From assembly GCA_009840595.1 (NCBI GenBank), contig VXNK01000105.1, positions 1-38,156 of the forward strand: a DNA stretch of 38,156 nt, given 5' to 3'. Of this stretch, positions 10,010 through 20,653 are shown piece after piece; the first letter of the stretch is position 1; every line of letters begins with the position of its first letter. The notes under the pieces are model-generated. The model was not told the DNA's origin. It worked only from the letters and a program-made list of their open reading frames with translations, and searched no databases. The translations under genes and the position numbers were made by a program. This DNA comes from Rhodospirillaceae bacterium (lineage in GTDB: Bacteria > Pseudomonadota > Alphaproteobacteria > Bin65).

Positions 10010-10097
10010 GCGCCCCCCCGACCGTGCGCCCGACCGCGGCGCCGGCCCGGTAGCGGTATCCGGGCGGCCGTATCCGGGCGGCAGAGGAGAAATCGAT

Positions 10098-10895
10098 ATG
10101 ACTACACGCGGAAACCGCTTCGCCGCCCTGCTGATCGCGGGCCTGCTTGCTGCGCCCGGCGCACACGCCGAATCGCGCTCCGTCCCCCTCGTCGACTGGA
10201 GCTCCGGGGAAAGTGCGGAGCGCCTCTCCCGGTCCCGCCACAAGGCCGACTTCTTCCCGCTCAGCAACAACTTCGTCAGCCAGGACAACAAGATTTTCTG
10301 CGGCCCGGCCTCGGCGGCGACGGTGCTCAATGCGCTGCGGCTCCGGCGCAAGCAGAACCTTCCGCAAGACACGGCGTCGATCGCCGAAAGCGAGCGCGCC
10401 TGGCTGCCCAAGGGCTTCAGCCCGTTCTTCGGCAAATACACGCCGGGCAACGTGCTCAACGACCGCACGAAGCGCCGGGTCGAGGTGCTCGGCAAGCCGA
10501 TCGAGATCCGCGGCCGGCTGCGCCCGGATTTCGGCCTGCAGCTGCACCAGCTGGCGCAGGCGTTGCGCGTCCACGGCCTCAAGGCGGACGTGCGGGTCGT
10601 GGACGACGGCGCCGATGCGGAAGCCGTCAAGCGCGAGATCGTTGCGAACCTGGCGCGCCGGGACGATTATGTGCTGGTCAACTATGCCCGCAAGGCGCTC
10701 GGCCAGCCGGGCGGCGGCCATATCTCGCCGCTCGGGGCCTACGACGCGCGCACCGACTCCTTCCTCATCATGGACGTCAACCCGAACCGCGCGCCCTGGG
10801 TCTGGGTGCGCGCCGCCGACCTGATTGCCGCCATGCGCACCTTCGACACGGTCGAGAACCGCGGCTACCTGCTCGTCTCCGACCCGCAATCCTGA
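10098..10895 (+). CDS. Exported phytochelatin-synthase-like cysteine peptidase
   Basis: The product is 265 aa with a signal peptide (about 1-24, cut after AHA). The remainder matches the papain-like catalytic domain of phytochelatin synthases: Cys68 in FCGPASAATVLNAL, His208 in GGGHISPLGAYD and Asp226 in MDVNP. The His-Asp spacing of 18 is the same as in plant PCS (His162, Asp180). The Cys-His spacing is 140, larger than in plant or cyanobacterial enzymes, because of an extra segment around residues 85-140. The Cys-rich C-terminal domain of plant enzymes is missing, as in prokaryotic members, which mainly cleave Gly from glutathione or its conjugates. The signal peptide implies periplasmic action. 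The start at 10098 has GAGGAG upstream. Confidence 0.88.
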   Translation: MTTRGNRFAALLIAGLLAAPGAHAESRSVPLVDWSSGESAERLSRSRHKADFFPLSNNFVSQDNKIFCGPASAATVLNALRLRRKQNLPQDTASIAESERAWLPKGFSPFFGKYTPGNVLNDRTKRRVEVLGKPIEIRGRLRPDFGLQLHQLAQALRVHGLKADVRVVDDGADAEAVKREIVANLARRDDYVLVNYARKALGQPGGGHISPLGAYDARTDSFLIMDVNPNRAPWVWVRAADLIAAMRTFDTVENRGYLLVSDPQS

Positions 10896-10979
10896 CCGGG
10901 GGCGGGGCGGCGGGAAGATATGCACGAAGCCCGACCCGCGAAGTATACTGCCCGGCCGAAGAAGCCGTTGGAGCGCGCA

Positions 10980-11270
10980 ATGAAACTCTATGAGCCCGGC
11001 ACCGTGATCGAGATTCCTTGCAGCATCGCGGCTGGCGCCTTCCCGACTGAATATTTCGTCGCTATCCCGCTCGATGGAGAGGTCATTAACGGATTTGTGC
11101 CGACGCACTACATTTCGGAAAATGTCGGGTCGTCCGCCTATATACCCGGAACCGTCGAGCGGGTTGCCGGATCGACGCTAACGATCAGGATGCCGGGGTC
11201 TTATTTCACGACGTCGGGGATCGCGGATATTTCTCGAACATGGGCGGAGCGAAACGTACGGTTGACGTAA
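10980..11270 (+). CDS. Unknown small beta-rich protein, 96 aa
   Basis: I do not recognise this protein. It is predicted to be mostly beta strand (KLYEPGTVIEIPC, YFVAIPLDGEVINGFV, GTVERVAGSTLTIRM) with no signal peptide or membrane segment. The frame is open back to an ATG at 10920, but GGAG seven bases before 10980 and the compact domain start favour the shorter form. Base composition falls below that of the upstream genes here and drops further in the next gene, so the two may have arrived together. Its closeness to the OGG-fold-like gene (108 bp to the preferred start) is the only clue to context. Confidence 0.6.
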   Translation: MKLYEPGTVIEIPCSIAAGAFPTEYFVAIPLDGEVINGFVPTHYISENVGSSAYIPGTVERVAGSTLTIRMPGSYFTTSGIADISRTWAERNVRLT

Positions 11271-11378
11271 TTTTCAATAAGTGGAGATTACAGCGTGTGA
11301 TTCTTTCGCAGCCGACCCTCAAGTGCCCTCTTGCTTGAATCAAAGGATTCATTGGTAGCAAATACAAGAAGTTATGAA

Positions 11379-12161
11379 ATGACAAGTTTTCTTTCTGAGC
11401 ACCTAGTGCACTTCTCAAAATCCGTCGAGGCCCACTCCGAATCAAATAATTCCGGTGGCAAAAATGCCAAAAAGTTCGTTGGAGGGATTTTCGGTTTAGG
11501 TTCAGACGTTCTGCCCGACCGTAAATTGTGTCGCTGCGAGGTTTTTGAGCGGGTGGCGAGACCAAGCGTTTCCGATCTTACCGTTTGCGCAGCGATTATG
11601 GCTTGGGGCGGCATGTGGTATAAACACAGGAACATGCTGTTCAATACCGCCTCTCGTCAGGAGTGGCTTGGAATCGCTCAAAGTATTAGGCGCGGCGAAA
11701 TCGACCGGAAAACCGCATACGGCCGACTACGAGAACTTAGACTCCAAAAAAAGCTGAGGGGAGCGGGGCCGGCGTACTTCACAAAGCTGATCTACTTCCT
11801 ATTGCCACGTGATGATAGCGCACCAAAGGCCGGATACATAATGGACCAGTGGGCAGGCTGCTCCATTAATCTTTTATCTGGACGAGAGGTTGTCTTAATG
11901 GACACCAATAAAATCCGGAAGCAAATAATCGGCCCGACTGCTCCGTCGTATGCTTTCAGAGTTTCAGATAGAAACACCGAAGCCAACTACGAGGCATTTT
12001 GCTGCGCGGTGGATCGATTGGAGGAGTATTTTGGGATCAATACAGACCGAATTGATCGGGCGCTCGTATCCGATGGTGGAAAAACCCCGACGCCATGGCG
12101 ACAATATGTGATGAAACACAGACTTCAACGCATCTTGGACGACCTTGACGACCGTGACTAG
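11379..12161 (+). CDS. OGG-fold (8-oxoguanine glycosylase-like) protein in a lower-GC island
   Basis: The product is 260 aa from ATG 11379. The central region (about 95-170) reads as a helix-hairpin-helix DNA glycosylase-like fold: a hairpin LRGAGPAYFTKLIYF (127-141) followed by YIMDQWAGCSINLL (153-166). Asp156 occupies the place of the catalytic Asp. The Lys that follows the GxG hairpin in bifunctional OGG1/Nth enzymes is Ala132 here, with Lys136 one turn later, so lyase activity is uncertain. Codon use and GC are clearly lower than in neighbouring genes, suggesting transfer. The start is ambiguous: TTG 11331 and TTG 11352 (with AAAGGA upstream) are alternatives. It converges with rho, 9 bp away. 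Family assignment is from memory of the motif pattern. Confidence 0.7.
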   Translation: MTSFLSEHLVHFSKSVEAHSESNNSGGKNAKKFVGGIFGLGSDVLPDRKLCRCEVFERVARPSVSDLTVCAAIMAWGGMWYKHRNMLFNTASRQEWLGIAQSIRRGEIDRKTAYGRLRELRLQKKLRGAGPAYFTKLIYFLLPRDDSAPKAGYIMDQWAGCSINLLSGREVVLMDTNKIRKQIIGPTAPSYAFRVSDRNTEANYEAFCCAVDRLEEYFGINTDRIDRALVSDGGKTPTPWRQYVMKHRLQRILDDLDDRD

Positions 12162-12170
12162 CGCGCGCCC

Positions 12171-13436
12171 TCACGTATTCATGCTGTCGTAGAATTCGTC
12201 GTTGGACTTGGTGTCCTTGAGCTTGCCGAGCAGGAACTCCATGGCGTCGGTGACGCCCATCGGCAGCAGGATGCGCCGCAGCACCCACATCTTGGCGAGG
12301 GTCGCCTGGTCGGCCAGCAGCTCCTCCTTCCGCGTGCCGGACTTGCCGATGTCGATGGCCGGCCAGACCCGCTTGTCGGACAGCTTGCGGTCCAGGTTGA
12401 TCTCGCTGTTGCCGGTGCCCTTGAACTCCTCGAAGATCACCTCGTCCATGCGGCTGCCGGTGTCGATCAGCGCCGTGGCGATGATCGAGAGCGAGCCGCC
12501 CTCTTCGATGTTGCGCGCCGCGCCGAAGAAGCGCTTGGGCCGCTGCAGGGCGTTGGCGTCGACGCCGCCGGTCAGCACCTTGCCGGAGGACGGCACGACC
12601 GTGTTGTAGGCGCGCGCCAGCCTTGTGATCGAATCGAGCAGGATGACAACGTCGTGCTTGTGCTCGACCAGCCGCTTGGCCTTCTCGATCACCATTTCGG
12701 CGACCTGGACGTGGCGGCCGGCCGGCTCGTCGAAGGTCGAGCTGATGACCTCGCCGTTCACCGTGCGCTGCATGTCGGTGACTTCCTCCGGCCGCTCGTC
12801 GATCAGCAGGACCAGCAGGTAGACCTCCGGATGGTTCGACGAGATGGCGTGGGCGATATTCTGGAGCATCATCGTCTTGCCGGTGCGCGGCGGCGCGACG
12901 ATGAGCGCGCGCTGGCCCTTGCCGATCGGCGTGACGATGTCGATCACCCGGCTGGTCAGGTCCTTGCCCGTCGGGTCCTTCGGCTCCATGGTCAGCCGCT
13001 GGTCCGGGTAGAGCGGCGTCAGATTGTCGAAGTTGATCCGGTGGCGGACCTTTTCCGGCCCCTCGAAATTCACCCGGTCGACCTGGAGCAGGGCGAAATA
13101 GCGCTCGCCGTCCCTGGGGCCGCGGATCGGGCCGTGCACCGTGTCGCCGGAACGCAGCGAGAATTTCCGCACCTGGCCGGGCGAGACGTAGATATCGTCC
13201 GGGCCGGGCAGGTAGTTGGCCTCGACCGAGCGCAGGAAGCCGAAGCCGTCCGGCAGCACCTCCAGGGTGCCCTGGCCGATGATCGGCGTGTCCTGCGCGG
13301 ACAACTCCTTGAGGATGGCGAACAGCAGCTCCTGCTTGCGCAGGGTGCTCGCCGCCTCGATTTCCAGCTCCTCGGCATAGGCCAGCAGGGCGCCGGGCGT
13401 CTTGGCTTTCAGATCCTGTAGATCGACGGATGACAT
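12171..13436 (-). CDS. rho: Transcription termination factor Rho
   Basis: The product is 421 aa, matching the usual 419-aa Rho. The N-terminal Rho-N helical domain begins [20 protein letters not shown]. It is followed by the RNA-binding OSB domain with GFGFLRS and [16 protein letters not shown], and then a RecA-like ATPase domain with the P-loop [10 protein letters not shown], the Walker B stretch [14 protein letters not shown] and the R-loop region. The hexamer translocates on C-rich untranslated RNA to end transcription. The ORF is open further upstream, but MSSVD at 13436 with AGGTGA upstream matches the conserved start. It is the last gene of the leftward hemE-hemH-hemJ-rho series, set apart from hemJ by a 318-bp leader that probably carries its own promoter. 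Confidence 0.98.
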
Positions 13437-13754
13437 GAGTATTTCACCTGGGGCGTTTGACTTGGGGCGTTCGGCTTGGGGATTGCGCTGCGCACCGGCC
13501 GCGGGCCGGGAGGGCGCGAATGGGGAAGAAACGGCGGCGGCCGCGCAACGGCGGGATCGGGGAACGGAGACCGGACGGCGTGCCCTGGGCGGGCAGTCTG
13601 AGCGGGCGCCCGGGCTCCGGGAGACGCCGGTACGGGCGTCGTGCCGCTTCATCGGAAGGAAGGACCCCGAATATAGCAGCCGCGGCCGGGAAAGTAAGGG
13701 GGCGCGAATGCCGCGCCGGCGGCCGACCCCGCGGCGGGCCGGCGGCGGGCGGGA
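13437..13754. other. rho leader region, 318 bp
   Basis: No protein-coding gene is supported here; frames crossing it are extensions of flanking genes or antisense to them. It contains a candidate leftward promoter (13670-13697), leaving an untranslated leader of over 200 nt before rho. rho is autoregulated through its leader in other bacteria, so a long leader would be consistent with that, but the sequence alone does not prove it. Confidence 0.4.
13670..13697 (-). promoter_or_regulatory. Candidate rho promoter
   Basis: Read on the minus strand, TTACTT (plus 13692-13697) and TATATT (plus 13670-13675) are separated by 16 bp. The AT-rich hexamers stand out in an otherwise very GC-rich stretch between hemJ and rho. 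This is a pattern match only. Confidence 0.4.
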
Positions 13755-14199: not shown

Positions 14200-15279
14200 T
14201 TACACCGCCCCCGGCGCGGCGGCGGCCAGCGGGCAGGCGCGCCACGCGCCGGGGCACAGCCGGCCGCCGCAATCGGATTCCAGTCCGCCGCGCGCCAGGA
14301 TGGTTTCGACCATATCGGCAAGGCCGCCGATGAAGGCCGGGTGGGCGCCGGCCGTCGGCGCGCGGAGATAGGCCGGCACGCCGGCCGCTTCGGCGACCTT
14401 GCGGTATTCGATATCGAGTTCGACCAGGGTTTCGGAATGCTCCGAGACGAAGGCGACCGGCGCCACCAGCACCGGCCTCTTTTCCGCACCGGCGCGGCGG
14501 ATTTCGTCCTCGGTCGACGGCCCGATCCACTTCAGCGGCCCGACCCGGCTCTGGTAGCAGACGACGCTGTCGGCGGCGGCCCCGGCGAGTGATCCATCAA
14601 GCGCTTCGGCGAGCGCGGCGGCCGTCTGCTCGACCTGCCACCGGTACGGATCCCCCGCGGCGATGACCTTTTCCGGCAGCCCGTGGGCCGAAAACAGGAT
14701 GCGCGGCGGGTCTCCGTCATGGCCGGCCAGGGTTTCCGCGATCCTGTCCGCCATCGCCGCGACGAAGCCCCGGTTCGCCGGATAGCAGCACACGCCGCCT
14801 GCGGCCGGGCCGAGGCCGGTTTTCGCCGCCCACCGGCTCCATTCGCGCACCGACGAGGCCGATGTCGTCGTCGAGAATTGCGGATAGAGCGGCAACAGGA
14901 CGGTGCGGCGCACGCCCCGCCCGGCCAGGTCGCGCGCCACGGCCTCCGCGCGCCGGCCCCAGTAGCGCATGACGACATGGACCGAGGGGGCGCCGGCCGG
15001 GCCCAGCCGCTCGCGCAAAACGGCTTCCAGCGCCGCAGCCTGGGCGTCGGTCTCTTCGTGGATCGGCGACTTGCCGCCGAGATGGGCGTAGATGTCCCGC
15101 GCGACCGGGGCGCGGCGGCCGGCGATCAGCTTCGCAAGCAGCCAGCGCACCGGCTGCGGCGCGCCGACGATCGCCCGGTCGTTGAACAGGTTGAACAGGA
15201 AGGGCTTCACCGTGTCCGGCGCGGTCGGCCCGCCGAGATTGAACAGGATGACGGCGGTATCGCTCTTCGGGCCGCTCAT
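14200..15279 (-). CDS. hemH: Ferrochelatase
   Basis: The product is 359 aa. It inserts Fe2+ into protoporphyrin IX to make heme. The opening AVILFNLGGP, the substrate loop YPQFSTTTSAS, the catalytic His199 in FSAHGLPEKV and Glu283 in SEHSETLVELD are all present. The C-terminus extends past the core and carries three cysteines (337, 342, 349; pattern C-x4-C-x6-C). Some alphaproteobacterial ferrochelatases bind a [2Fe-2S] cluster through C-terminal cysteines, and this tail could do so, with a fourth ligand from the core such as Cys164 or Cys165. hemE ends 10 bp upstream, so the two are almost certainly co-transcribed. Confidence 0.97.
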   Translation of the reverse strand: MSGPKSDTAVILFNLGGPTAPDTVKPFLFNLFNDRAIVGAPQPVRWLLAKLIAGRRAPVARDIYAHLGGKSPIHEETDAQAAALEAVLRERLGPAGAPSVHVVMRYWGRRAEAVARDLAGRGVRRTVLLPLYPQFSTTTSASSVREWSRWAAKTGLGPAAGGVCCYPANRGFVAAMADRIAETLAGHDGDPPRILFSAHGLPEKVIAAGDPYRWQVEQTAAALAEALDGSLAGAAADSVVCYQSRVGPLKWIGPSTEDEIRRAGAEKRPVLVAPVAFVSEHSETLVELDIEYRKVAEAAGVPAYLRAPTAGAHPAFIGGLADMVETILARGGLESDCGGRLCPGAWRACPLAAAAPGAV

Positions 15280-15289
15280 GCCGCGCCAC

Positions 15290-16318
15290 TCATGCAGGGC
15301 CGCGCAGGGCCGCTACCAGCGCGGCTACATGGTCCGGCGGTGTCTGCGGGACGATGCCGTGGCCGAGATTGAAGATATGCGGCCCGCCGGCCAGTCCGGC
15401 CCGGAGCTGACCGGCCCGTTCGACCAGCGCCGGCCCGCCGGCGACCAGCAGCAGCGGATCGAGATTGCCCTGGACCGGCACGGTCTTCTGGATTTCCGCG
15501 GCCTGGGCGAGCGGGACGCCGGTGTCGAGGCCGACCGCCGCAATGCCGGTCCCGGCGACATAGTCCTCGATCAGGCGCCCGGCGCCACGCGGAAAGCCGA
15601 TGACCGGCGTCGCCGGATGCCGCGCCCGCAAGGCCTCGACGATCCGCCGCGTCGGTTCGATGGCGTAGCGGCGGAATTCCGGCTCGGCGAGCACACCGGC
15701 CCAGCTTTCGAAAATCTGTACGCAGTCCGCACCGGCCGCGATCTGGCGCGACAGGTGATCGACGGTCGCCTCAGTCAGCATGTCGATCAGCGCGCCGAAC
15801 CCGTCCGGGTCGCGCCACATCCAGTGTTTGACCGTCTCGAACGTCCGGCTGCTGCCGCCCTCCACCGCGTAGGTCGCGACGGTCCAGGGCCCGCCCGCGA
15901 ATCCGATCAGCGCCTTGTCCGGTGCGAGCGCCGTGCGGATCGCGCCGACCGCCTCGTAGACCGGCGCGCAATGCGCCGCCACCCGGCTTGGGTCGAGCGG
16001 CGCCAGATCGCCGGCACTGCGGACGGGTTCGAGCACCGGGCCGTGGCCGTCCTCGAAACCGACGCTCATCCCCATCCCGTCGGGCACGACCAGAATGTCC
16101 GAAAACAGGATCGCGGCGTCGAAATCGAAACGCCGAACCGGCTGCAGGGTAATCTCGGTCGCCAGCGCGGGCGTGTAGCACAGGTCGAGGAACGAGTCGG
16201 CAGACCGGCGCAGCGCCCGGTATTCCGGCAGATACCGCCCGGCCTGCCGCATCAGCCAGACCGGCGGGACCGCCAGGACCTCTCCTGCCAACACGCGCAT
16301 GATCGGCCGATCGGTCAT
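15290..16318 (-). CDS. hemE: Uroporphyrinogen decarboxylase
   Basis: The product is 342 aa, standard for the family. It decarboxylates the four acetate groups of uroporphyrinogen III to give coproporphyrinogen III. The family signature WLMRQAGRYLPEY is at 22-34, Asp74 in FSDIL is the likely catalytic aspartate, and GFAGGPWTVATYA and the C-terminal FNLGHGI signature are present. The frame is open far upstream, antisense to PPSR and maf; ATG 16318 is chosen because MTDRPIMRVL aligns with the usual start. hemE is the first gene of a leftward heme operon and borders the candidate replication origin, a position conserved in Caulobacter and Rickettsia. Confidence 0.98.
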   Translation of the reverse strand: MTDRPIMRVLAGEVLAVPPVWLMRQAGRYLPEYRALRRSADSFLDLCYTPALATEITLQPVRRFDFDAAILFSDILVVPDGMGMSVGFEDGHGPVLEPVRSAGDLAPLDPSRVAAHCAPVYEAVGAIRTALAPDKALIGFAGGPWTVATYAVEGGSSRTFETVKHWMWRDPDGFGALIDMLTEATVDHLSRQIAAGADCVQIFESWAGVLAEPEFRRYAIEPTRRIVEALRARHPATPVIGFPRGAGRLIEDYVAGTGIAAVGLDTGVPLAQAAEIQKTVPVQGNLDPLLLVAGGPALVERAGQLRAGLAGGPHIFNLGHGIVPQTPPDHVAALVAALRGPA

Positions 16319-16629
16319 CGGGTCGCCTGCCGGTTTGCCGGAACGGTAACGCCGCCCGGAAACCGGCCGGCGGCGGCGAGGCCTCCGCACGGCCGTCGGG
16401 CGGCAATCTTCAAAGAGTCTTTTATATAGAAGGTTGAGGTTGTTTTTGTTGGGCAGGGGAGTCGCGGGGATTGCGCGTTGGCCACAGCGCGGTCGATGCC
16501 GGATCCGGGTGCCGCACGGAAGCGTGCCGGCGATGTGGAAAGGATGCAGAACGCCGGTAACGCCCTGAAAATGCCGGATATGCCGGCCGTCCGGCCGCGA
16601 ATAACCGGACCGGCGCGGCGTGGGCGGCT

Positions 16630-16638
16630 TGCGGATAA
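16630..16638 (-). promoter_or_regulatory. Near-consensus DnaA box
   Basis: On the minus strand this reads TTATCCGCA, one mismatch to TTATCCACA. It is one of several GGATAA cores spaced over about 65 bp (16630-16693). Confidence 0.5.
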
Positions 16639-16796
16639 CCGTCCGATGGGCGCAAGCGGTCCACGGCGGGATAAACGATCCCCAGCCGGATAACCCGGTT
16701 TCCGGACTCCGGCTGTGCCGGGAAAACATTTTGCGGTCGCCGCCGGCCGCCGCCGCCGCGTATAACGGGGCCGTTTCCGGCGCTTCGACAGCGCGC

Positions 16797-16805
16797 TTGT
16801 CCACA
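16797..16805 (+). promoter_or_regulatory. Near-consensus DnaA box
   Basis: TTGTCCACA, one mismatch to TTATCCACA, 23 bp before the PPSR start. It is the closest match in forward orientation in the candidate origin. Confidence 0.55.
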
Positions 16806-16828
16806 GGATTGTTCCGCCGGCCGCCGCC

Positions 16829-17752
16829 ATGGACCGCCATCATCTCTATCTGATCTCCGATTCGACCGGCGAGACGGTCCAGAGCATCGGGCGCGCCTGC
16901 ACGGTCCAGTTCGAGCAGGTCGAGGTTGTCGAGCATCTGTGGCCGATGGTGCGCAGCCCGCGGGCGCTGGAGATCGTCATCGAGGAGCTGGAGGAGGAGC
17001 CCGGCCTGGTCCTCTATACCCTGCTCGACCGGACGCTCGCCGAAACCCTGGAGGAGTATTGCAAGCGCCGCGGGCTGACCTGCGTCTCGGTGATCGAGCC
17101 CTTTATCGAGGTGATGGCGACCTATTTCGGCGCCAAGAGCCGCGACATGCCGGGCCGGCAGCACGAGCTGGACGACGAATATTTCCAGCGCATCGACGCC
17201 ATGAACTACGTCATGCAGCATGACGACGGCCAGCAGACCGGCAACCTGGAGGAGGCCGACGTCGTGCTGGTCGGGGTCTCGCGCACGTCGAAGACGCCGA
17301 CCTCGATCTATCTGGCCAACCGCGGCATCAAGGCGGCCAACGTGCCGATCGTGCCGGATCAGCCGCTGCCGGACATCCTGTTCGCCCTGAACCGGCCGCT
17401 GGTCGTCGGCCTGACCGAGGACCCGCGCCGGCTGGTCGACCTGCGCCGTTCGCGCATGCGCCAGTCGCTCGGCGACACCGAAACGGCTTACACCGATATC
17501 GCCGCGGTCCGGAAGGAGGTCGCCGACGCACGCCGGCTGTTCGGGCGCTACGGCTGGCCGGTCATCGACGTGACCCGCCGGTCGATCGAGGAGACCGCGG
17601 CGGCGATCCTGCGCCTGGTGCGCGACCGCGAGCGCCGCCACGAAGAGGGCGCCGACGCCGACCTGCTCCAGCTCGGCGGCCGGCCCGATGCCGCACCGCT
17701 CCTGGACGGGGCGGGCGGCGCCCCGGCGCGGATCGAGAGCGGCAAACCATGA
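16829..17752 (+). CDS. Pyruvate, phosphate dikinase regulatory protein (PPSR/DUF299 family)
   Basis: The product is 307 aa. The family members are bifunctional serine/threonine kinases and phosphorylases that switch pyruvate phosphate dikinase, or PEP synthase, on and off using ADP and phosphate. The N-terminal LYLISDSTGETVQSIGRA is diagnostic, and the P-loop-like GVSRTSKT is at 149-156, followed by TPTSIYLANRG. The last 40 residues are a low-complexity tail that is not conserved. The gene is the homologue of RP001, which borders the replication origin in Caulobacter and Rickettsia. It leads a rightward series with maf, aroE, coaE and dnaQ. No clear Shine-Dalgarno is seen before ATG 16829. 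Which target enzyme it controls cannot be told from this window. Confidence 0.95.
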   Translation: MDRHHLYLISDSTGETVQSIGRACTVQFEQVEVVEHLWPMVRSPRALEIVIEELEEEPGLVLYTLLDRTLAETLEEYCKRRGLTCVSVIEPFIEVMATYFGAKSRDMPGRQHELDDEYFQRIDAMNYVMQHDDGQQTGNLEEADVVLVGVSRTSKTPTSIYLANRGIKAANVPIVPDQPLPDILFALNRPLVVGLTEDPRRLVDLRRSRMRQSLGDTETAYTDIAAVRKEVADARRLFGRYGWPVIDVTRRSIEETAAAILRLVRDRERRHEEGADADLLQLGGRPDAAPLLDGAGGAPARIESGKP

Positions 17753-17762
17753 CCGATAAGCG

Positions 17763-18404
17763 ATGACTGGCGCACACTGGCCGGCCCGCCCCGGCGCCCC
17801 GGCGCTCGTCCTGGCGTCCGCCAGCCGGACCCGCGCGGCGATGCTGCGCAACGCCGGGCTGGCGTTCGAGACCGTGCCGGCCGCGATCGACGAAGCGGCG
17901 GTCAAGCAACGCCTGCGCGGCGACGGCGCTTCGGCCGAACGGGTCGCCGGCATGCTGGCCGAACTGAAAGCCGAACGGGTCGCCTGCGCAATCGCGGCCG
18001 AACGTCCCGACGCCCTGGTGCTCGGGGCGGACCAGGTGCTCGATCTCGACGGCGCGCTGCTCGACAAGCCGGCGGACCGCGCCGCCGCCGCGGCGCATCT
18101 GCGACGCCTGTCCGGCAAGCGCCACCGGCTCGTCTCGGCGGCGGCGCTGCTGCGCGGCGGGCAGCGGATCTGGGACTGCACCGACAGCGCCAGCCTCGTC
18201 GTGCGCCCGCTGTCGGCGCGCTTCATCGCCGCCTATCTCGACGCCGCCGGGGCGGATGCGCTGGACTCGGTCGGCGCCTACCGGCTCGAAGGTCTCGGCG
18301 CCCACCTGTTCGCCTCGGTCGACGGCGACTTCTTCACCATTCTCGGCCTGCCGTTGCTGCCGCTGCTCGATTTCCTGCGCAGCGACGGGGCTCTCGACCC
18401 ATGA
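17763..18404 (+). CDS. maf: Maf-like nucleoside triphosphate pyrophosphatase
   Basis: The product is 213 aa. Maf proteins hydrolyse non-canonical or modified nucleoside triphosphates (dTTP, UTP, m7GTP, depending on subfamily) to the monophosphate. The N-terminal signature LVLASASRTRAAMLRNAGL, the GADQVL motif with the catalytic Asp, KPADRAAA, and the SVGAYRLEGLGAHLF motif are present. The subfamily cannot be decided from reading alone. It starts 10 bp after PPSR, and its stop overlaps an ATG of aroE in an ATGA arrangement. Confidence 0.94.
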   Translation: MTGAHWPARPGAPALVLASASRTRAAMLRNAGLAFETVPAAIDEAAVKQRLRGDGASAERVAGMLAELKAERVACAIAAERPDALVLGADQVLDLDGALLDKPADRAAAAAHLRRLSGKRHRLVSAAALLRGGQRIWDCTDSASLVVRPLSARFIAAYLDAAGADALDSVGAYRLEGLGAHLFASVDGDFFTILGLPLLPLLDFLRSDGALDP

Positions 18405-18427
18405 CGGGGACCCATGACGGGGGACCC

Positions 18428-19285
18428 ATGACCGGCCTGCCCAGCGGAAAGGCGGTCGTCGCCGGGGTCGCCGGCTGGCCGGTCGGCCATTCGCGCTCGC
18501 CGCGCCTGCACGGCCACTGGCTGCAGCGCTACGGCATCGACGGCCTATACGCCCCCTTTCCGATCGCGCCGGAGAACTTCGAGACGGCGGTGCGCGGGCT
18601 TGCCGCCGCGGGCCTCGCCGGGCTGAACGTCACGGTGCCGCACAAGGCGGCGGCCTGCGCCCTGTGCGACCGGCTGGACGACACGGCGCGCCGCCTTGCC
18701 GCGGCCAACACGCTGGTCTTCGGGCCGGACGGCGCCATCGAGGGCCGCAATACCGACGCCTACGGCTTTGCCGAGGCCCTGAAGGCCGCCGCGCCGGAGG
18801 CCGCTGCCGGCCGCGGGCCCGCCGTCGTCCTCGGCGCGGGCGGCGCGGCGCGGGCGGTCGTGCTCGCGCTGCAATCCCTGGGCTACAGCCCGGTCCGCAT
18901 CGCCAACCGGACGGCGGCGCATGCGGAGGCGGCCGCCTCTGCGCTCGGGCCGGGCGTCGAGACCGTGCCCTGGGAGGAGCGCGCCGCCGCGCTCGCCGGG
19001 GCCGCCCTGCTGGTCAACGCCACCTCCCTCGGCATGACGGGCCGGCCCGCGCTCGACCTGCCGCTCGCCGACCTGCCGCCGGAGGCGACGGCCTGCGACA
19101 TCGTCTATGCGCCGCTGGAAACCCCGCTGCTCGCCGCCGCGCGCCGGCGCGGCTGCCGCGCGGTCGACGGGCTCGGGATGCTGCTGCACCAGGGCCGGCC
19201 GGGCTTCCGGGCCTGGTTCGGCGTCGATCCGGCGGTCGATGACGACCTGCGCCGGGCCGTCGCCGGCGATCTGCTCGCCGCCTGA
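18428..19285 (+). CDS. aroE: Shikimate dehydrogenase (NADP+)
   Basis: The product is 285 aa from this start. It reduces 3-dehydroshikimate to shikimate with NADPH in aromatic amino acid synthesis. Catalytic Lys73 is in NVTVPHKAA and Asp110 in RNTDAYGF; the substrate loop WPVGHSRSP is at 17-25. The NADP-binding motif GAGGAARAV is followed by NRT. An in-frame ATG at 18401 overlaps the maf stop and would add nine residues (MTGTHDGGP); I prefer 18428 because GGGGGA lies just upstream and the N-terminus then fits homologues. The two ATGs lie in near-identical ACCCATGACGGGG microrepeats, so the start may have been duplicated. Confidence 0.94.
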   Translation: MTGLPSGKAVVAGVAGWPVGHSRSPRLHGHWLQRYGIDGLYAPFPIAPENFETAVRGLAAAGLAGLNVTVPHKAAACALCDRLDDTARRLAAANTLVFGPDGAIEGRNTDAYGFAEALKAAAPEAAAGRGPAVVLGAGGAARAVVLALQSLGYSPVRIANRTAAHAEAAASALGPGVETVPWEERAAALAGAALLVNATSLGMTGRPALDLPLADLPPEATACDIVYAPLETPLLAAARRRGCRAVDGLGMLLHQGRPGFRAWFGVDPAVDDDLRRAVAGDLLAA

Positions 19286-19287
19286 CG

Positions 19288-19974
19288 ATGCGCATCGTCG
19301 GCCTCACCGGCTCCATCGGCATGGGCAAGACGGCGGCGGCCGGCTATCTCCGCTTTCTCGGCGTGCCGGTCTACGACGCCGATGCGGCGGTCCACGCGGT
19401 CTATGCCCGCGGCGGCGCGGCGGTCGGCCCGGTCGGCGCGGCCTGGCCGGAGGCGGTGCGCGACGCCGCCGTCGACCGCGCGGCGCTGAGCGCGCTGATC
19501 GCCGCCGACCCCGCGGTCCTGCCGCGGCTCGAGGGCATCGTGCACCCCATCGTCCGGCGCCGGCAGGAGCGGTTTCTCCAGGCGGCGGCGCTGCGCCGGG
19601 CGCCGGCGGTCGCGCTGGACATCCCGCTCCTGTTCGAGACCGGCGGCGAACGGCGCTGCGATACGGTCCTCGTCGTCTCGGCGCCGGCCTTCGTGCAGCG
19701 CGGCCGGGCGCTGGCCCGCCCGGAGATGACAGCGGACAAGCTCGCGCTTATTCTGGCGCGCCAGATGCCGGATGCGGAAAAGTGCGCGCGGGCGGATTTC
19801 GTCATCCCGTCGCACCGGGGCTGGCGGGCCATGCTCGCCGGCCTGCGCCGGGCGGTGCGCCGGACGCTCGAACGGCCGGCCCGGCACTGGCCGCCCAATC
19901 CGCACACGGCGCCGCCGCGGCCGGTCCGCGTCGCGGCCGTGCGCCGCCCTATCGCCGGGGGACGCCATGCGTGA
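19288..19974 (+). CDS. coaE: Dephospho-CoA kinase
   Basis: The product is 228 aa. It phosphorylates dephospho-CoA at the 3' hydroxyl, the last step of coenzyme A synthesis. The P-loop GSIGMGKT is at 8-15, with the DADAAVH motif following the VPVYD strand, then VHPIVRRR and DIPLLFETGGE of the CoaE fold. The C-terminal about 30 residues (Pro and Arg rich) extend beyond the enzyme core. The start is two bases after the aroE stop and the end overlaps the dnaQ start by eight bases, showing translational coupling. Confidence 0.96.
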   Translation: MRIVGLTGSIGMGKTAAAGYLRFLGVPVYDADAAVHAVYARGGAAVGPVGAAWPEAVRDAAVDRAALSALIAADPAVLPRLEGIVHPIVRRRQERFLQAAALRRAPAVALDIPLLFETGGERRCDTVLVVSAPAFVQRGRALARPEMTADKLALILARQMPDAEKCARADFVIPSHRGWRAMLAGLRRAVRRTLERPARHWPPNPHTAPPRPVRVAAVRRPIAGGRHA

Positions 19975-20653
19975 AATCGTGCTCGATACCGAAACCACCG
20001 GCCTCGATCCGGCGGCCGGCCACCGGATCGTCGAGATCGGCGCCCTCGAACTGCAGCATCACCTGCCGACCGGGCGCGAATACCACACCTATCTCGACCC
20101 GGAGCGCGAGATGCCGGAGGAGGCCTTCGCCATCCACGGCCTGTCCGACGATTTCCTCGCCGGCAAGGCCAAATTCGCCGACGCCGCCGACGCCCTGCTC
20201 GATTTCATCGGCGACGCGCCGCTGGTCATCCACAATGCGGAGTTCGACCTGCGTTTTTTGAATGCGGAGCTGGCGCAGATCGGGCGCGAGCCGCTCGATC
20301 CGGGCCGCGTCGTCGACACCCTGCTCATCGCGCGGCAGAAATTCCCCGGCGCCCGGGCCAGCCTCGACGCCCTGTGCCAGCGCTTCGAGATCGACCTCGC
20401 CGCGCGCGACAAGCACGGCGCGCTGATCGATTCGCACCTGCTGGCGGCGGTCTATCTGGAGCTGGTCGGCGGTCGCCAGCCCGGTTTCGAGCTCGCCGCC
20501 GACACCGGCCGGCCGACCGACGCCGCAAGCGCCGAACGCGAGCGCCGAGCGCCGCGCCGGCACTTGCCCGGCGCCGCGCCGACCGAGGCCGAGCGCGCCG
20601 CCCACCGGGAGTTCCTGAAAAAGCTCGCCGACCCGATCTGGCTCGCCGAGTAG
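19967..20653 (+). CDS. dnaQ: DNA polymerase III epsilon subunit (3'-5' proofreading exonuclease)
   Basis: The product is 228 aa. It is the DEDDh-type proofreading exonuclease of the replicative polymerase. Motif Exo I is DTETTGLDP with Asp7 and Glu9, Exo II is IHNAEFDLRFL with Asp94, and Exo III has His150 and Asp155 (DKHGALIDSHLLAAVYLEL). The C-terminal region after about 185 should bind the alpha subunit; it contains Arg-rich and helical segments (EREHRR-like, then EFLKKLADPIWL). Its position beside the candidate origin is shared with other alphaproteobacteria. It converges with secB, leaving 12 bp between the stops. Confidence 0.97.
   Translation: MREIVLDTETTGLDPAAGHRIVEIGALELQHHLPTGREYHTYLDPEREMPEEAFAIHGLSDDFLAGKAKFADAADALLDFIGDAPLVIHNAEFDLRFLNAELAQIGREPLDPGRVVDTLLIARQKFPGARASLDALCQRFEIDLAARDKHGALIDSHLLAAVYLELVGGRQPGFELAADTGRPTDAASAERERRAPRRHLPGAAPTEAERAAHREFLKKLADPIWLAE

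Follow-up and report, generated by a model that had tools for sequence, protein, structure and literature searches.

The 510-bp gap between the divergent genes hemE and PPSR (COG1806) of an alphaproteobacterial MAG is very probably the chromosomal replication origin (oriC), whose location between these two genes is shared with Caulobacter. Judging from sequence comparison, we assign this reading a probability of about 0.91. The assignment is made by position, conservation and neighbourhood, and its notable parts are a derived unwinding segment and a genus that is free of CtrA. It is supported by the enrichment of DnaA boxes across the class, by the skew and KOPS polarity of a complete relative, by parS and parAB at 12-20 kb in congeners, and by an unwinding profile; clustering of boxes within the gap and a canonical DnaA gene were computed as well.

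The window, i.e. the whole stretch of DNA that was analysed, is one complete contig (C11, 38,156 bp) of a 4.1-Mb MAG in 168 contigs. The nearest named relatives of this MAG are alphaproteobacterial MAGs, several of which are labelled Rhodospirillaceae and one of which is named Spongia_Bin9; the source bacterium is uncultured and probably associated with sponges. As an earlier sequence-only reading had stated, the genes on both sides of the gap run outward, with rho, hemJ, hemH and hemE on the minus strand and PPSR, maf, aroE, coaE and dnaQ on the plus strand (Table 1). For dnaQ the true start is later than the ORF start (the profile match begins at residue 66-67). The same reading had placed the origins of Caulobacter and Rickettsia between these two genes, in agreement with the literature (PMC1914354): experiments have mapped the Caulobacter origin to the hemE/COG1806 gap, and the origin of Rickettsia has been proposed to lie there as well.

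Table 1. Features of the window discussed in the text (positions in the window; NCBIfam matches for the genes).
Feature	Position	Strand	Basis or remark
Putative oriC, hemE-PPSR intergenic gap	16319..16828		divergent flanking genes; class-wide DnaA-box enrichment
DnaA box TTATCCGCA, 1 mismatch	16630..16638	-	kept in G003
DnaA box TTGTCCACA, 1 mismatch	16797..16805	+	motif scan, genus alignment
Weak DnaA box TTGGCCACA, 2 mismatches	16478..16486	+	
Weak DnaA box CTTTCCACA, 2 mismatches	16534..16542	-	
GGGATAAACGATCCCCAG, TTATCC core and W-box-like TCCCCA	16668..16685		mostly conserved across genus
Third GGATAA (TTATCC) core	16688..16693	-	
AT-rich DNA-unwinding element candidate	16405..16450		72% AT
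AAGAGTCTT, instance of AAGANTCTT adjoining the AT-rich element	16413..16421		
Putative unwinding segment: trinucleotide array, GC spacer, degenerate box position, CGGGGATT	16428..16472	+	profile match; genus alignment
Degenerate DnaA-trio-like array, mostly 3'-GTT-5'	16432..16451	+	4/6 in-frame triplets TNG
AGGGGAGTC at trio-proximal DnaA box position	16455..16463	-	genus alignment; class gap sequences
CGGGGATT, element common to other class gaps	16465..16472		
rho	12171..13652	-	TIGR00767
hemJ		-	NCBIfam; hemE side
hemH, ferrochelatase	14200..15279	-	TIGR00109
hemE, uroporphyrinogen decarboxylase	15290..16318	-	TIGR01464, 393.6 bits
PPSR (RP001/COG1806 homologue)	16829..17752	+	NF003742, 337.4 bits
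maf	17763..18404	+	NCBIfam
aroE	18401..19285	+	NCBIfam
coaE	19288..19974	+	NCBIfam
dnaQ	19772..20653	+	NCBIfam; mechanical ORF

DnaA sites in the gap and across the class

The gap holds several DnaA sites, two with one mismatch and two with two mismatches, all of them weak; an exact DnaA box is not found in the gap. Both one-mismatch boxes are present where the sequence-only reading had put them, and at least two such boxes occur in only 0.06% of dinucleotide shuffles of the gap (a frequency of 0.0006). The repeated GGATAA cores described there are also confirmed: three of them (16633, 16669 and 16688) fall within 61 bp, and 0.08% of the shuffles contain three such cores. Within 329 kb of the own genome, two non-overlapping boxes inside 510 bp are encountered only here. 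For the window as a whole the number of boxes is not significant (3 found against 1.19 expected, with 14 of 100 shuffles reaching 3); the box signal is one of clustering in the gap rather than of whole-window count. The gap is ordinary by position, though its initiator-binding sites are weak.

The box at 16797 reads TTTTCCACA or TTGTCCACA in all seven members of the genus alignment, and TGTGGAAAG is retained at the weak box at 16534 in six of the seven. The AT-rich patch that had been pointed out is indeed the most AT-rich 46-mer of the window (rank 1 of 38,111). A repeat of CGGTAACGCC had also been reported; it is present (at 16344 and 16555) and unique in 329 kb, but the pair is probably incidental because the genus alignment does not conserve it.

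Nearly all loci that contain both genes keep them as a divergent pair, with a gap of 328-896 bp. Allowing up to one mismatch, we counted 85 DnaA boxes in 54 distinct alphaproteobacterial gaps, where dinucleotide shuffles give 3.4; exact boxes number 12, compared with 0.1 in the shuffles. TCCCCA, known as the Caulobacter W-box (PMC4285127), is enriched as well (83 against 21.6 in shuffles), and so are CGGGGATT near the unwinding segment (12 class gaps against 1.9) and AAGANTCTT next to the AT-rich element (15 of the 54 gaps against 0.3).

The closest known counterpart is Cori of Caulobacter crescentus (hemE/COG1806, CC0001), which is alike in its flanking genes, its similar size, its AT-rich patch and its weak DnaA sites, including those of the TCCCCA type (PMC1914354, PMC4285127). 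An AT-rich stretch of about 40 bp is a Caulobacter-type trait that has its equivalent in the unwinding element candidate of the window, whereas the Caulobacter G-box TGATCCACA is not present in the window's gap. The origin of Rickettsia prowazekii (hemE/RP001) shares the two flanking genes (PMC1914354).

An apparently derived unwinding segment and one DnaA residue

Near the hemE end, many alphaproteobacterial gaps combine AT-rich sequence with a TNG-triplet array, which is accompanied by a short GC spacer, a minus-strand DnaA box and GGGGATTA. Nine gaps have, on the plus strand, an array in which five or more of six triplets are TNG; the minus strand and the shuffles have no such array. With its box, GC spacer and trinucleotide array oriented alike, this layout corresponds to that of the basal unwinding system (BUS) of Bacillus subtilis, with its tandem DnaA boxes and 3'-GAT-5' trios, and the window appears to have the homologous segment. 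Across all genus members, four to five of the six in-frame triplets are TNG. Unlike in the BUS, most triplets of the window's array are 3'-GTT-5', and the box next to them is degenerate: no recognisable DnaA box is seen at 16455-16463, where other alphaproteobacteria do carry one (TGTGGATAA, plus strand). The unwinding segment of the window therefore looks derived.

A profile of the segment was built from 22 gaps outside the family and searched with nhmmer (--nonull2). Its best match in the 38-kb window is the segment listed in Table 1, with a modest score (E 0.05, --nonull2); it also matches the homologous spot in six congeners and ranks the gap first in congener contigs of 200, 140 and 211 kb. 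With the null2 composition correction on, the window is not reported. Given that the correction was off and that seed selection followed inspection of the genus alignment, we take the match as moderate evidence for a homologous unwinding segment. According to a published criterion (PMC8287927), a DnaA box should have at least three 3'-NAN-5' trios no more than 16 bp away. On reading the sequence by eye, no such set was found in the window, because 3'-GTT-5' predominates among the triplets and AGGGGAGTC occupies the adjacent box position.

Outside the genus, the middle base of the TNG triplets is T in 26 cases, G in 20, A in 19 and C in only one, for triplets that had been preselected for T and G at their ends. 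Asn187 of DnaA reads the central adenine of the trio in B. subtilis; according to the same paper, DnaA homologues in general keep the chemical character of the residues at these positions (PMC10721633). The alphaproteobacterial DnaA differs here from that of B. subtilis: the position is Tyr in 26 and Phe in one of 27 properly aligned sequences (a 28th was misread by the pattern). The pairing of relaxed triplets with Tyr at this position is suggestive, and the class-wide comparison yields a testable match between an origin trinucleotide array and one DnaA residue. It might tentatively be argued that alphaproteobacterial origins use a relaxed trio code, 3'-GNT-5' (middle T, G or A), matched to the Asn187 to Tyr change. 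The genus of the window would then be an extreme case, in which the trio-proximal box is gone, the triplets are mostly 3'-GTT-5', CtrA is lost and weak DnaA sites run the origin; we regard this proposal as rather doubtful.

The own DnaA gene (on contig C84) is present and canonical. The signature of its DnaA-box-binding domain is FGNRDHTTV in the genus of the window (L140:1654-3153, the own DnaA, together with L094 and L089), and FGGRDHTTV in the other alphaproteobacteria sampled.

Strand polarity, segregation genes and alternative readings

A GC-skew check had been proposed along with the origin, and its outcome differs by genome: there is a clear switch at the gap of a complete relative (G022), but neither a minimum nor a switch at the gap in the genus. 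In G022, nine of ten samples on the right side have positive skew and eight of ten on the left side have negative skew, and KOPS-type octamers number 61 on the leading against 17 on the lagging strand about the gap; polarity leans the same way, weakly, in G024 and G075. In congener contigs of 140-211 kb, GC, AT and keto skew do not switch at the gap, and neither KOPS nor any other 8-mer shows polarity beyond the expectation from 5960 tests. The sampled contigs of the own genome have small skews. As skew and KOPS show no switch at the gap, the skew test cannot decide in this genus; skew is uninformative there for locating the origin, which is a caution against its use for that purpose. GC skew is known to be insufficient for predicting the origin in several alphaproteobacteria (PMC1914354). 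In three congeners (G001:C33, G002:C25 and G003:C44), cumulative GC skew if anything peaks weakly near parS instead of reaching a minimum there.

Perfect parS sites occur at one or two places per genome in the seven genus genomes, on the contig whose parB is the best match and the chromosomal one. In G001, G002 and G003 the only perfect parS found is beside parAB, on the hemE side and at 12-20 kb from the gap. The parS of the own genome is on contig C25, which has the order parB, parA, rsmG, mnmG and whose right end abuts the left end of the window by synteny. In two congeners dnaA lies some 46-52 kb from PPSR, on the PPSR side. A lone exact DnaA box, TTATCCACA, is situated about 425 bp from the own parS (C25:30276), and exact boxes are similarly near parS in G001, G002 and G003.

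Taking the gap as the origin, we infer that DnaA would bind a PPSR-side cluster, consisting of the boxes at 16797 and 16630, the weaker ones at 16534 and 16478, and TCCCCA/TTATCC half-sites, and that its filament would extend toward the hemE side. The duplex would open at the AT-rich patch (16405-16450), adjoining the trinucleotide array (16432-16451), after which the helicase would be loaded and two outgoing forks would leave in opposite directions. Segregation of the new origins would fall to ParB-parS, which in relatives lies 12-20 kb away on the hemE side. As a variant of this explanation, it is quite possible that the origin lies at the gap but is opened by a distal-box mechanism (remote boxes and DNA bending, as in E. 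coli) and not by a box-adjacent trio, since about 160-180 bp separate the trinucleotide array from the closest one-mismatch box, and reading the sequence revealed nowhere three consecutive 3'-NAN-5' triplets within 16 bp of a box (criterion of PMC8287927). Against this, the array is conserved in register with other alphaproteobacteria, suggesting that it still matters.

It is improbable that the gap is only a conserved divergent promoter or regulatory region for hemE and PPSR, with the active origin moved elsewhere, e.g. toward parAB or dnaA. Such a move would fit the finding that neither skew nor KOPS switches at the gap in this genus, the degeneration in the window of the trio-proximal box of other alphaproteobacteria, and the exact boxes close to parS in the own genome and in G001-G003. 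However, the gap holds the only two-box cluster found in 329 kb, a box conserved in all seven congeners and the best match to the unwinding profile, whereas the exact box near parS is single; a moved origin would be expected to take a box cluster along, yet neither C25 nor C84, the dnaA contig, shows one. More improbable still is an explanation of the DnaA-like sequences by chance, as random matches within GC-rich intergenic DNA. The non-significant box count of the window would agree with chance, but not the frequency of 0.0006 in gap shuffles, the strong class-wide enrichment or the conserved position within the genus. With the hemE-PPSR gap as the likely origin, a fixed point is available for an uncultured genus, so that read depth over the gap could be used as a gauge of growth rate in metagenomes.

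Origin control in a genus probably without CtrA

The sequence-only reading had noticed that no TTAA-N7-TTAA site is visible and had concluded that cell-cycle control would differ from that of Caulobacter. The first part holds: the motif is found neither in the gap of the window nor in those of the sister genera. The conclusion does not follow from this alone, as the full motif is present in only 6 of the 54 distinct class gaps and is missing also from sister genera that keep CtrA, so that missing CtrA boxes are in themselves uninformative about control. What does point to different control is the protein: CtrA is not over the cut-off in any of the seven genus genomes (best 162 bits against a cut-off of 350), whereas it is in three sister-genus genomes (G007, G008 and G009). 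GcrA is absent in all 11 genomes of the family, and a CcrM-type RAMA domain was not found in the own genome; the family genomes are drafts of 74-98% completeness, those of the genus being 95-98% complete. Since neither CtrA sites nor the CtrA protein were found, control by CtrA is unlikely, and origin control in this genus is likely CtrA-free.

From the sister genera we infer that the CtrA sites were missing before the protein was lost. Missing CtrA parts have a precedent in Rhodospirillales (PMC2877005), and the genus may serve as a natural case of an origin without CtrA. In these respects it departs from Caulobacter Cori: the gap of the window is without CtrA sites, the genus without CtrA, the family without GcrA and the genome without a CcrM-type RAMA domain. 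For the R. prowazekii origin, CtrA and IHF sites are reported in a 2002 paper as cited in PMC2877005; compared with that account, the window differs in having no CtrA sites.

Two candidates were set aside. A TTAA-N7-TTAA motif in the gap of one congener (G004, L003) was treated as a chance occurrence, with no CtrA over the cut-off, and regulation by CcrM through GANTC was dismissed for the own genome because a RAMA domain was not detected there. AAGANTCTT is widespread in the class although the genome of the window is without a RAMA-type CcrM.

Further from the gap, positions 10011-12167 of the window form an AT-richer stretch that is missing in G003 and partly missing in G002. It contains ORFs for a phytochelatin synthase (10098-10892) and an OGG-like protein (11334-12158), and was possibly gained recently.
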